Shown here: positions 58,420-61,680 of the stretch, piece by piece
Layout of the letters: each line of letters starts with the position of its first letter
Position numbering within the stretch: position 1 is the first letter of the stretch
The notes under the pieces: model-generated
The model's input: the letters and a program-made list of their open reading frames with translations, nothing else
What the model was told of the DNA's origin: nothing
Databases searched by the model: none
Assembly: GCF_009826975.1 (NCBI RefSeq)
Contig: NZ_WUMO01000007.1
Span: 248,001 to 312,000, forward strand
Length of the DNA stretch: 64,000 nt
Reading direction: 5' to 3'
DNA from: Flavobacterium sp. HBTb2-11-1
GTDB lineage: Bacteria > Bacteroidota > Bacteroidia > Flavobacteriales > Flavobacteriaceae
Made by a program: the position numbers and the translations under genes

Positions 58420-59262
58420 CTATATTTTATCTTTAACAATATCGTTTGGTGTAAAATAGAAAACGTTTGGTATTGGATTTAAAGGCACATGATCTTTTAC
58501 AATATTTTTTAATCGAATTAGATTATAATACATGCCTTCAAATTCATTTTTGTATATAATACTTCCATTATCCCATTTTATATCACCTGGTAAACCTTCA
58601 ACAATTATGAAATCAAAGAAAGCTTTTATTTTACCTTCTTTTTCTGCTTGTTTAACCACATAAGTCATACTTTGTATTCGCTCTGGAAAATCAAATATTG
58701 AGGCTCCATTCTGCAATTCATAAAATAAAAAATTGCATTCATCAAAACAAAAATGCTCAGGTCTGCTAAAAACAAGTTTATAATCTTTGCTTTGCTTAAA
58801 TAATGTGTTGGTAAATTCAATATTTCGGTACAAACAAAATGTACCAGTTATGAAATCGTGTCTGCTACTTACAACATCATATTCTGAAAGTAATTCTTCA
58901 GTCATAAAATCTCGTATGTTGCCATAAACCATATCAATATCACCATGTCCCCAAAAATCATAGTCCTGTAATATGTCAGAAAAAATAAAACCATATGCAG
59001 GTTTGAAATCGCATAGTTTGTACGGATATTCGAGATTAACGGTAAAACCCAATTTTTGTGAAGCTAAATTTCGAATGTCATCAGGAGTTTTGTAAATAAT
59101 CTTTACATTTTTGGGTTTGTTTGGAATAGTTTCGAGGTTATTGGTAATTATTATAAAATCAACAGTTGGATTGTAGACGCAAGAATGGACAAAATACGGA
59201 AAATACCATGGATAATCGCCATACCAACATGTAAGCATTGCAATAGAAGTTAATTTTGTCAT
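58420..59262 (-). CDS. DUF6625-like glycosyltransferase-fold protein
   Basis: A 280-residue cytoplasmic protein with the start TSIAMLTCWYGDYPWYFPYFVHSC, a DxD-like GHGDIDMVYGNIRDF (about 116-130) and CLYRNIEF. The sequence resembles the family I know as DUF6625, seen beside glycosyltransferases in Bacteroidota, and the DID motif fits a GT-A sugar-nucleotide site. Its place between the thioredoxin-like and exporter genes suggests it acts on the peptide (perhaps glycosylating Ser/Thr or Asn) or on a carrier. This is inference. It overlaps the thioredoxin-like gene by 4 nt. Confidence 0.75.
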   Translation of the reverse strand: MTKLTSIAMLTCWYGDYPWYFPYFVHSCVYNPTVDFIIITNNLETIPNKPKNVKIIYKTPDDIRNLASQKLGFTVNLEYPYKLCDFKPAYGFIFSDILQDYDFWGHGDIDMVYGNIRDFMTEELLSEYDVVSSRHDFITGTFCLYRNIEFTNTLFKQSKDYKLVFSRPEHFCFDECNFLFYELQNGASIFDFPERIQSMTYVVKQAEKEGKIKAFFDFIIVEGLPGDIKWDNGSIIYKNEFEGMYYNLIRLKNIVKDHVPLNPIPNVFYFTPNDIVKDKI

Positions 59263-59780
59263 TGTTTATTTATTTTCTTCAAGATGTGATCAATTTTTAC
59301 TTGACCTTTTATTTTTTCTAATAATTGTTGTTGATTATTATAGATTACAATTGTTGGAAAAGCTTTAACATCAAATGTTTTAGAAAAGACAACTTGTTTG
59401 TCATAGATGAAATGAATGTTATCATGATTCAATAACTGATAATTTTCGGCAAATTTTTTGATTTTTAAAGGTGATTCAAATGAAATAAATATCAATTGTG
59501 TGTTTTTGAATTGCTCAATGTTTTTCTTAATTATTTCAACTTCAGTATTGCAAAACTCACATTCAGTATTAAAATATAAGAATATGGTTGGTGTGTTTTT
59601 TTTTAAGTTATGATTGTTGAATAAAACCCCATTGATATCCTCAAATGAAAATTCAGGTATTTTTTTGATATTTTTTGTGACCTCATTTTTATGATTTATT
59701 CTAAAAATTATTTTAGTTATCAGAAAGGATAAAAGAATCAAAACAGTTAGGGGCAAAAATATTTTTAACGGCTTTTTCAT
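59259..59780 (-). CDS. Membrane-anchored thioredoxin-like protein
   Basis: A 173-residue protein with an N-terminal membrane helix (about 8-27) and a redoxin domain like TlpA/AhpC: IPEFSFEDINGVLFNNHNL (about 42-60), the active site YFNTECEFCNTEV (CxxC, about 75-78) and a cis-Pro candidate in FDVKAFPTIVIYN. It should face the periplasm and handle disulfides. Each precursor in this operon has two core cysteines, so oxidation or isomerisation of the exported peptides is a plausible role. It ends 4 nt into the next gene. Confidence 0.85.
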   Translation of the reverse strand: MKKPLKIFLPLTVLILLSFLITKIIFRINHKNEVTKNIKKIPEFSFEDINGVLFNNHNLKKNTPTIFLYFNTECEFCNTEVEIIKKNIEQFKNTQLIFISFESPLKIKKFAENYQLLNHDNIHFIYDKQVVFSKTFDVKAFPTIVIYNNQQQLLEKIKGQVKIDHILKKINKQ

Positions 59781-60511: not shown

Positions 60512-60709
60512 CTAGCTATTCCAGCATGCTTTTGCCATTGTATTCCAAAACTGAGAAGTTGAATTAGCACCAACATTTGCCCACACAAACATGATACCCA
60601 CTGTACCACAACCATATCCGCTTCCAGCCATAATGCTTTCCATTTCAGATGTAGTGAGTTTATTCCCAATATTTGCAAGACATATTTTTTTTACTTTTCT
60701 TTTTTTCAT
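60512..60709 (-). CDS. Bacteriocin-like precursor peptide B
   Basis: A 65-residue precursor. The leader (1-30) is KICLANIGNKLTTSEMESIMAGS and ends in Gly-Ser, a double-glycine-type C39 cleavage site. The 35-residue core begins GYGCGTVGIMFVWANVGANS and ends MAKACWNS, with cysteines at residues 34 and 62 that could form a disulfide, Trp and Gly rich, weakly cationic. The core contains an NST sequence. The leader aligns with precursor A while the core does not, as expected for paired or divergent peptides processed by one exporter. Confidence 0.85.
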   Translation of the reverse strand: MKKRKVKKICLANIGNKLTTSEMESIMAGSGYGCGTVGIMFVWANVGANSTSQFWNTMAKACWNS

Positions 60710-60736
60710 GATTTATGTTTTTTTTAAATTAAAAAC

Positions 60737-60913
60737 TTACTTTTCTTTTATAAACATATACAACAATAACATGTTCCATATTATAAGCATTATGAGTAAA
60801 AAATGAATCCAAATATTGTCAATTTGAAAAAGCAATCTCTCATTACAAAAAACTAATATTGAAGCAATAATGTTAAATGAAATTATGAACAATTTTGATC
60901 CTATTTTTTTCAT
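60737..60913 (-). CDS. 58-residue membrane peptide, possible immunity protein
   Basis: The ATG at 60913 follows the precursor A stop by 11 nt, in the same direction. The frame MKKIGSKLFIISFNIIASIL... has two strongly hydrophobic segments (about 6-24 and 36-55) joined by NERLLFQIDNIW and ends FIKEK. Small membrane proteins encoded directly after a precursor are typically immunity proteins; here it sits between the two precursors. The longer frame opening at 61054 is ruled out because it runs antiframe through precursor A. Evidence is position and hydropathy only. Confidence 0.6.
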   Translation of the reverse strand: MKKIGSKLFIISFNIIASILVFCNERLLFQIDNIWIHFLLIMLIIWNMLLLYMFIKEK

Positions 60914-60924
60914 AGTGTTAAGTT

Positions 60925-61161
60925 TTAAAAGCAATTTGAAGATGCAGCAGAATAAAATCCTCCAATAGCTCCACCAGCAAATAGCATCCCAACACCACCT
61001 CCGATAGCTGAGGCAGCTCCCATGAATCCAATTCCAACGCCCATTAAAAAGCAATTTCTACCTGTACTCCCAGCCATAACATTCTCCATTTCATCTTTTG
61101 TCAATTTGCCTTCAATATTGACAAGACTCATTTTTTTGATTTTAGTTTCAATTTTTTCCAT
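60925..61161 (-). CDS. Bacteriocin-like precursor peptide A
   Basis: A 78-residue precursor. Leader 1-32 includes MSLVNIEGKLTKDEMENVMA and ends in Gly-Ser (31-32), matching precursor B almost position by position. The 46-residue core begins TGRNCFLMGVGIGFMGAAS and ends SAASSNCF; it is very Gly/Ala/Ser rich and hydrophobic with GxxxG-like spacing, as in class IIb two-peptide bacteriocins, and has cysteines at 37 and 77 able to link the ends. First gene of the operon; ATG at 61161, with an inner ATG at codon 11 possible. Confidence 0.88.
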   Translation of the reverse strand: MEKIETKIKKMSLVNIEGKLTKDEMENVMAGSTGRNCFLMGVGIGFMGAASAIGGGVGMLFAGGAIGGFYSAASSNCF

Positions 61162-61211
61162 GATTATATAATTTATTGGTTAATATTAGATTATCAGAAT
61201 AAATGATATAG

Positions 61212-61256
61212 CAAATTTATAATAGGTCACAAAAAAGTCTCAACCGAAAATCGGTT
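61212..61256 (-). promoter_or_regulatory. Operon promoter with overlapping palindromic operator
   Basis: On the minus strand TAAATTTG (+ 61212-61219) is an exact -7 element, and a TTG at + 61241-61243 lies 21 nt upstream as a -33 element. A perfect palindrome, AACCGA AAA TCGGTT (61242-61256), covers that -33 element. This is where the XRE-type regulator encoded next door would be expected to repress. Confidence 0.6.
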
Positions 61257-61326: not shown

Positions 61327-61680
61327 ATGAATAAAATTGTAGGAGATAATCTAAAAGTTTTGAGAAAATCAAAAAATATGTCGCAAGAAGAGGCTGCGGA
61401 TCATTTGAAAATTTCTCAATCGGCTTATGCTAGAATGGAACGTGGAGAGAGTACATCTTGGGCTATCCATTTTAATAAAATATGTCAGATTTTTGAAATA
61501 TCTCCAGAAGAATTAGTTCGAAAAGGATTAGGAGATTCTGTTTATGAAAGTCTAATGAATACAGAACGACAAACAGAGATTGCAATGTTAGGGGTTTATA
61601 GAAAAATTATAAAGCAATATGAGTTGCAAATTCAAGATTTGAAAACCATTATAAGACACTTAAATAAAGGCAAAAATTAA
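61327..61680 (+). CDS. XRE-family transcriptional regulator
   Basis: A 117-residue regulator with an N-terminal HTH (about 6-60: NLKVLRKSKNMSQEEAADHLKISQSAYARMERG) and a C-terminal coiled helix (about 80-115, YRKIIKQYELQIQDLKTIIRHL) that may dimerise. It is divergent from the bacteriocin-like operon. The ATG at 61327 was preferred to the TTG at 61306, which lies inside the -7 element. It probably represses the operon and itself through the intervening palindrome; no partner sensor or pheromone kinase is encoded. Confidence 0.85.
   Translation: MNKIVGDNLKVLRKSKNMSQEEAADHLKISQSAYARMERGESTSWAIHFNKICQIFEISPEELVRKGLGDSVYESLMNTERQTEIAMLGVYRKIIKQYELQIQDLKTIIRHLNKGKN

Follow-up and report, generated by a model that had tools for sequence, protein, structure and literature searches.

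A Bacteroidetocin-Like Flavobacterium Locus with Two Candidate Bacteriocin Peptides, an Exchanged Cassette, and a Leader-Associated DUF6625 Gene

Introduction

Bacteroidetocins were proposed as class IIf bacteriocins by Coyne et al. in 2019 (PMC6671954). In that paper, a TM protein, the peptide, and a thiol oxidoreductase were each required for full activity, and these three together with a C39 ABC transporter, a four-gene region, were sufficient in E. coli; bacteroidetocins were reported there without an immunity protein. The target of bacteroidetocins is reported to be BamA (PMC8546649). In Caulobacter, the Cdz system is described as glycine-zipper proteins that form contact-dependent aggregates on the producer surface and depend on type I secretion (PMC5380434). 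The open-licence PMC literature was searched by titles and abstract openings, and nothing on a two-peptide bacteroidetocin was found.

In this study, a stretch of 64,000 nucleotides (the window; contig NZ_WUMO01000007.1, positions 248,001 to 312,000) was analyzed. An operon with two peptide precursors was compared with related loci and with the described systems.

Results and Discussion

Organization of the Operon

The operon genes lie on the minus strand in the order precursor A, 58-aa ORF, precursor B, TM209, oxidoreductase, DUF6625, and C39 ABC exporter (Table 1). They are co-directional, with intergenic gaps of at most 84 bp, and all reading frames are open. The flanks are 92–98% identical to locus L046 of F. 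anhuiense (NZ_FMVC01000008.1); by this measure, the DNA comes from a Flavobacterium closely related to F. anhuiense.

Table 1. Features of the operon and its surroundings (coordinates of the window).
Feature	Position	Strand	Basis
Precursor A, 78 aa	60925..61161	-	ORF; leader profile; core homologue in F. circumlabens L050 (z 19.4)
Precursor A leader, through MAG	61161-61069	-	Predicted cleavage
Precursor A core, 47 aa, Cys 6 and 46	61068-60928	-	Predicted cleavage after MAG
Small membrane protein, 58 aa, candidate immunity	60737..60913	-	Between A and B
Precursor B, 65 aa	60512..60709	-	ORF; core homologues in L050 (B, z 17.5) and L052 (B, z 12.3)
Precursor B leader, through MAG	60709-60623	-	Predicted cleavage
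Precursor B core, 36 aa, Cys 5 and 33	60622-60515	-	Predicted cleavage after MAG
TM209, multi-TM accessory protein, 209 aa	59798..60427	-	51 related loci; no Pfam family
TlpA/AhpC-type thiol-disulfide oxidoreductase	59259..59780	-	Pfam AhpC-TSA, 1.3e-10
DUF6625 protein, 280 aa	58420..59262	-	Pfam PF20330, 1.4e-59
C39-peptidase ABC exporter, 719 aa	56240..58399	-	Pfam Peptidase_C39 (1.2e-30), ABC_membrane, ABC_tran
XRE-type HTH regulator, divergent	61327..61680	+	Pfam HTH_3, 1.5e-10
TM75, orphan small TM protein, 63 aa	61692..61883	-	Similarity to genes after FLTSC-type cores
Palindrome AACCGAAAATCGGTT, possible operator	61242..61256		Between HTH gene and precursor A

The oxidoreductase contains a CEFC motif at residue 74, and its single hydrophobic segment is an N-terminal TM segment. 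Pfam and NCBIfam searches assigned no family to precursor B or to TM209, and precursor A showed a sub-threshold Pfam match to MccV (E 0.048; 14.7 bits against a cut-off of 27). The three-dimensional structure of TM209 was modeled by AF2 with a mean pLDDT of 95.7. Comparison of the model with PDB by Foldseek gave no match with E < 0.001, and VIA-align gave a Z of at most 4.4 among the 73 chains compared. The lack of close matches does not by itself make the fold of TM209 a new one.

Homologues of the HTH regulator often adjoin related loci. The palindrome AACCGAAAATCGGTT between the regulator and precursor A was exact in the window, L046, L055, and L064, that is, in only 4 of 17 intergenic regions, and an operator common to all loci was therefore rejected. 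The same region (61200–61256) carries a promoter-like pair, TTG-N18-22-TAAATTTG, on the minus strand.

Precursor Peptides

Two precursors had been placed in this DNA by a preliminary description made from the sequence, and both were present as ORFs with ATG starts at the expected positions. Their leaders, called near-identical there, are of one type with only 57% identity in alignment. The cores had been described as unrelated, and no relation between A and B was detected (Smith-Waterman z 1.55; shuffle p 0.085). As also described, each core has a cysteine pair, with exactly two cysteines per core. The net charge of each core is +1.

The consensus of C39 double-glycine leaders has L at −12, E at −8, L or M at −7, I or V at −4, and G at −2 and −1. 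Both precursors are probably cleaved after MAG and not after GS, since a cut after MAG restores this C39 spacing and related precursors have ISGG/SG (L041), IQGG/SG (L127), and IMGG/SG (L128) at the same place (slash, cut). The cores of 46 and 35 aa given earlier would thus begin one residue late, and the cysteine positions 4 and 32 given for core B would become those in Table 1. The rings of 41 and 29 residues, counted inclusively, are retained if the cysteine pairs close.

That the two precursors are no chance reading frames follows from the core homologues in F. circumlabens, with dS above dN, and from the occurrence of the leader in other genomes. The leader profile matched 8 of the 199 genus genomes at E < 1e-5 and 12 at E ≤ 0.01; it was built with rows from six of those 8 genomes, that of the window included. 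Exactly two cysteines were found in 50 of the 60 leader-bearing ORFs called across TM209 loci. A disulfide in each predicted core is plausible because the operon encodes an oxidoreductase with CEFC and most relatives have two cysteines per core.

C39 exporters also secrete pheromones, and the HTH regulator adjoins the operon, as would suit an arrangement in which one peptide is the effector and the other a secreted signal inducing the operon via a receptor. This arrangement is very improbable: Pfam searches on ten proteins in and around the operon found no histidine kinase or response regulator. Both cores have 36–47 aa with a cysteine pair, and dS was above dN against the F. circumlabens homologues (core A, dS 1.54 and dN 0.34; core B, dS 1.26 and dN 0.40).

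Family of TM209 Loci

TM209 has relatives in 9 of the 199 genus genomes and 17 of 395 genomes of the class, the genome of the window being counted in both numbers; the GTDB species collection yielded 51 loci. Matches to the oxidoreductase and to the exporter each occurred in 44 of the 51 collection loci, and some of them were partial. Among 18 class-level TM209 regions, 4 (L179, L180, L181, and L183) had TM209, oxidoreductase, and exporter together. Among 72,556 plasmid records, TM209 occurred in one (Flammeovirga pectinis, 28%).

The precursor survey covered 51 loci: besides the window, these were the collection loci other than L090, a contig-end fragment (50 of 51). At least one leader-bearing short ORF upstream of TM209 was found in 36 of the 51 loci. 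The ORFs numbered 60, of which 53 were called by the profile of a 15-aa leader resembling MKKLELNQMENLxGG and the other 7 by that of the long leader. The short leader, like the gene set of the family, is of the kind described for bacteroidetocins (PMC6671954). At least one ORF called with a low score (L051:5638) looks more like a small membrane protein than a precursor. The precursor of F. anhuiense (L046) was under the length cut of the survey and was added by eye.

Two unusual arrangements were observed. L057, L060, and L064 retain TM209 (split in L057) with no precursor call or oxidoreductase match. They have a 1142-aa ORF downstream; L064 has a fragment of the exporter, and L057 and L060 lack it. 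In a Flavobacterium MAG contig (L072:35-1719), the set of precursor, small hydrophobic ORF, and precursor occurs twice in tandem, giving four precursors. These sets are followed by TM209, the oxidoreductase, and an exporter gene broken into several frames.

Pairing of the Two Cores

Homologues of both cores were found in F. circumlabens locus L050 in the order of the window, with a 66-aa TM gene separating the A core (z 19.4) from the B core (z 17.5). The L050 precursors have 15-aa GG leaders instead of the long leader of the window, and the 66-aa protein is 38% identical to the 58-aa protein. An A-type core, a small hydrophobic ORF, and a B-type core also occur in a second F. circumlabens locus (L052), L072, and L087. 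L061 keeps this order with a weaker second peptide that fails the B motif, and in L069 the hydrophobic ORF comes after A and B.

The A and B core motifs were defined after inspecting the sequences. By these motifs, A-type cores occurred in 7 loci and B-type cores in 6; a B-type core accompanied A in 6 of the 7 A loci and was missing from all 29 remaining precursor loci. The hypergeometric p for co-occurrence was 3.6e-6 with the 36 precursor loci treated as independent. In alignments with core A, L050 was far ahead (z 19.4), followed by L061 with 6.2 and the other A-type cores with 2.4–4.8. Other Gly-rich cores gave similar scores (L091, 4.4; L085, 4.2), so the membership of the weaker A-type cores rests on the motif. 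The second peptides of L061, L069, and L087 were weakly similar to B of the window (z 3.1, 2.9, and 2.2, respectively). B of L087 is 73% identical to B of L072, which in turn gave z 5.7 against B of the window.

Pairing that follows the cores, and not the leader, is the favoured reading, because both homologous cores co-occur in L050 under quite different leaders and, by motif, in further loci. The preliminary description had left two options, a two-peptide bacteriocin and a pair of independent peptides served by a single exporter. The comparative data favour the former, as both cores recur together in the same order.

Two independent single-peptide bacteriocins could share the leader, exporter, and oxidoreductase, with the small TM gene guarding against one of them. 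This is rather unlikely, although several findings agree with it. Only one precursor was called in 24 of the 36 loci with precursors, so one peptide can suffice in relatives, and the paired cores of L063, L074, and L078 match neither motif. L052, L065, and L072 each have more than one small hydrophobic ORF, which also fits one immunity gene per peptide. However, the A and B types are paired in 6 loci under two leader types, with a small hydrophobic ORF between them in 5 of the 6 (after B in L069).

Small Membrane Genes and Candidate Immunity

The hydrophobic 58-aa ORF is separated from A by 11 bp and from B by 27 bp, and its product is a candidate membrane immunity protein. The preliminary description had overlooked this ORF, as well as the bacteroidetocin gene set, DUF6625, and the module swaps. 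Compared with a 60%-identical orphan in L047, its gene had dN 0.29 and dS 1.01. A small hydrophobic ORF likewise follows the A-type precursor and precedes the second one in L050, L052, L061, L072, and L087. By eye, the small TM proteins seem to group with the core type: those of the window, L050, and the L047 orphan versus those of L052, L072b, and L087. In the 199 genus genomes, the 58-aa protein had matches beyond its own genome in 7 genomes at E 8e-4 to 0.01, with internal stops in 4 of the 7; these matches were set aside.

TM75 is 38–41% identical to the small TM gene after the FLTSC-type core in L046, L047, L049, and L059; against F. anhuiense, it had dN 0.04 and dS 0.54. A TM75 homologue was found in 10 genus genomes, four with TM209 and six with no TM209 match (G015, G057, G076, G087, G108, and G182). 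In the last five, within neighbourhoods read 1.5 kb to each side, the homologue (66–92% identical) adjoins lysC, with HTH pieces between them in G108. TM75 at lysC in genomes that gave no TM209 match has the look of immunity with no production, as if the gene were kept at an empty site.

We know of no killing test for these Flavobacterium loci, and the peptides might serve a structural or surface role and not be toxins; alternatively, the locus might be decaying. The F. anhuiense copy is frameshifted right after the leader, and the absence of precursor calls and oxidoreductase matches beside TM209 in L057, L060, and L064 would agree with decay. This explanation is nevertheless improbable, with every operon gene open in the window and immunity-like genes present in genomes that have no TM209. 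The gene set also equals that described for a toxin operon proven by experiment (PMC6671954).

Cassette Exchange behind a Fixed Leader

The window and L046 align at 92% through the HTH gene and the A leader, and the alignment breaks off with the final base of the MAGS motif, one codon past the predicted cleavage site. The alignment resumes at base 44 of TM209 and continues at 98% to the operon end; the first bins of the resumed alignment are at 60–87%, and values above 90% are reached from about 200 bases into TM209. In protein, residues 1–55 of TM209 are 55% identical and residues 70–209 are 96% identical. No alignable orthologous stretch lies between the breaks, where only the B leader matches the L046 leader. 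In the window, this interval is filled by core A, the 58-aa gene, and B; L046 has another core (LTSCAGAS...) and another small TM gene, with the frameshift of its precursor directly after the leader.

These alignments indicate a cassette swap in which the leader stayed and the core was exchanged along with the small TM gene and the beginning of TM209, since DNA identity collapses within one codon of the predicted cut and recovers inside TM209. Because relatives exchange peptides as a cassette behind a fixed leader, the leader, the putative toxin, and the putative tailoring gene behave as separable modules.

Leader Exchange and DUF6625

The leader itself can also be exchanged. The FLTSC cores of L047 (Flavobacterium sp. 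ACN6) and L049 (F. ginsenosidimutans) are 98% identical in protein, with dS 0.75 and dN 0.01. The core of L047 stands under a long MAGS leader in a locus with DUF6625, whereas that of L049 stands under a 15-aa GG leader in a locus lacking DUF6625. The two loci thus form a natural control, with almost the same core protein with and without the leader/DUF6625 module.

Among TM209 loci with a precursor, L046 being added by eye, a strong long leader was present in exactly the 5 loci with DUF6625 (window, L046, L047, L059, and L065) and in none of the 32 others. One of the 32, L069, is an exception: a long-leader precursor was called there with a weak score (23 bits), and DUF6625 is absent from the stretch examined. 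In genus genomes, DUF6625 occurred in 7 of the 8 with a strong leader match versus 21 of 199 overall (Fisher 4e-7, relatedness ignored); in the exception, G017, the leader is present and DUF6625 is absent from the genome. The TM209 tree (29 rows) needs two changes for the long leader and DUF6625. The association therefore represents two inferred origins, since the window, L046, L047, and L059 form one clade; L065 is separate and has a different gene order.

The contexts of DUF6625 were also investigated. By Pfam, it is present in another peptide locus with a C39-type exporter and a VKOR-type oxidase (L040). Similar peptide loci were recognized by BLAST to L040 (L125, L127, L129, and L136) or partly by eye (L041 and L042), and L043 ends at DUF6625. 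By eye, DUF6625 lies beside proteins resembling LanB/LanC in L126 and L137 and in apparent polysaccharide clusters in L121–L123; its contexts in L124, L131, L133, and L135 have no assigned type. In the DUF6625 tree, the window copy is among copies from peptide loci and unnamed contexts, and the polysaccharide copies are outside.

A second type of locus was observed (L040:793-6876, L042:1231-6260, and L043:113-4566), with a MAGS leader, Cys-rich cores, and DUF6625. It has a VKOR-thioredoxin protein, which was tested on L040, and in L040 and L042 a different C39-type ABC protein.

The alignment of DUF6625 shows an invariant WG..D.D. Its AF2 model from 5 sequences was poor (pLDDT 48), so the Foldseek list, with VP39 methyltransferase in the first four rows followed by glycogenin at E 0.011 and weaker matches, is not evidence. 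DUF6625 had no match up to E 1 among PDB sequences, no relative was found in the viral contigs scanned, and the search of the open-licence PMC literature found no paper on it. The distribution of its gene suggests that DUF6625 is a leader-linked tailoring enzyme, plausibly a glycosyltransferase. A leader-directed glycosyltransferase that recognizes the MAG/S leader and modifies peptides in other respects bacteroidetocin-like, which would make the product of the window a glycosylated, disulfide-ringed two-peptide bacteriocin, is a doubtful extension of this reading.

Proposed Mechanism

The locus is, with modest confidence, a bacteroidetocin-like two-peptide operon that has undergone cassette exchange and in which DUF6625 acts on the long-leader precursors. 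One C39 ABC exporter would read both leaders of the same type, cut after MAG, and export both cores, and the oxidoreductase would close one disulfide per core. TM209 may assist maturation or release, and the 58-aa membrane protein would protect the producer. The two mature peptides would jointly attack the envelope of competing Bacteroidota. Behind the fixed leader, the segment running from the core to the TM209 start is exchanged between strains as a cassette. The long MAG/S leader would have arrived with DUF6625 in the two events derived from the tree, and DUF6625 would most likely act on precursors that bear this leader.

If so, these loci supply a paired version of bacteroidetocins, previously described as four-gene regions with no immunity protein. 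They also supply candidate immunity genes, some of them orphans in genomes lacking TM209, and a leader exchange made in nature whose breakpoint falls within one codon of the predicted cut. Three questions come within reach of direct tests: whether a Gram-negative bacteriocin can consist of two co-operating ringed peptides, by what means Bacteroidota producers of this kind escape their own peptides, and whether the leader selects DUF6625 as an enzyme for peptide tailoring.

Comparison with Known Systems

Core A resembles class II microcins such as microcin V in being a Gly/Ala-rich hydrophobic core with cysteines. It differs in having its two cysteines at opposite ends, and the MccV match was below the cut-off. 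To our knowledge, microcin V has no partner peptide.

Class IIb bacteriocins of Gram-positive bacteria have two adjacent small peptides, a small membrane immunity gene, and a C39 exporter; the window likewise has two such peptides and a C39 exporter, with a candidate immunity gene. Two different peptides conserved as a pair, a feature of the class, were found by alignment in L050 and by post-hoc motif elsewhere. The window differs in the cysteine pair of each peptide, the Gram-negative producer, and the position of the immunity-like gene between the peptide genes.

In the Cdz system of Caulobacter (CdzC/CdzD/CdzI; PMC5380434), a Gram-negative producer secretes two glycine-zipper proteins and has a small TM protein for immunity; by description, the window resembles it in its Gram-negative producer, its two putatively secreted peptides, and its candidate immunity protein.

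Bacteroidetocins share with the window a multi-TM protein, a thiol oxidoreductase, a C39 ABC exporter, a small Cys-bearing peptide with a cleavable leader, and a Bacteroidota producer. This likeness is by gene set and published description, with TM209 as the counterpart of their five-TM protein. The leaders of the window, 31 and 29 aa and ending in MAG, are not short GG leaders, unlike those of bacteroidetocins with 15–16 aa and a GG end; the homologous cores in L050 do have a 15-aa GG leader. The window further differs in its two precursors with unrelated cores and a small TM gene between them, and in the DUF6625 gene inserted in the operon. Its cores have two cysteines each, compared with four in bacteroidetocins A and B, and at least two core cysteines are thus present in both. 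Mature bacteroidetocins have about 42–53 aa, a range in which the predicted core A (47 aa) lies inside and the predicted core B (36 aa) outside.
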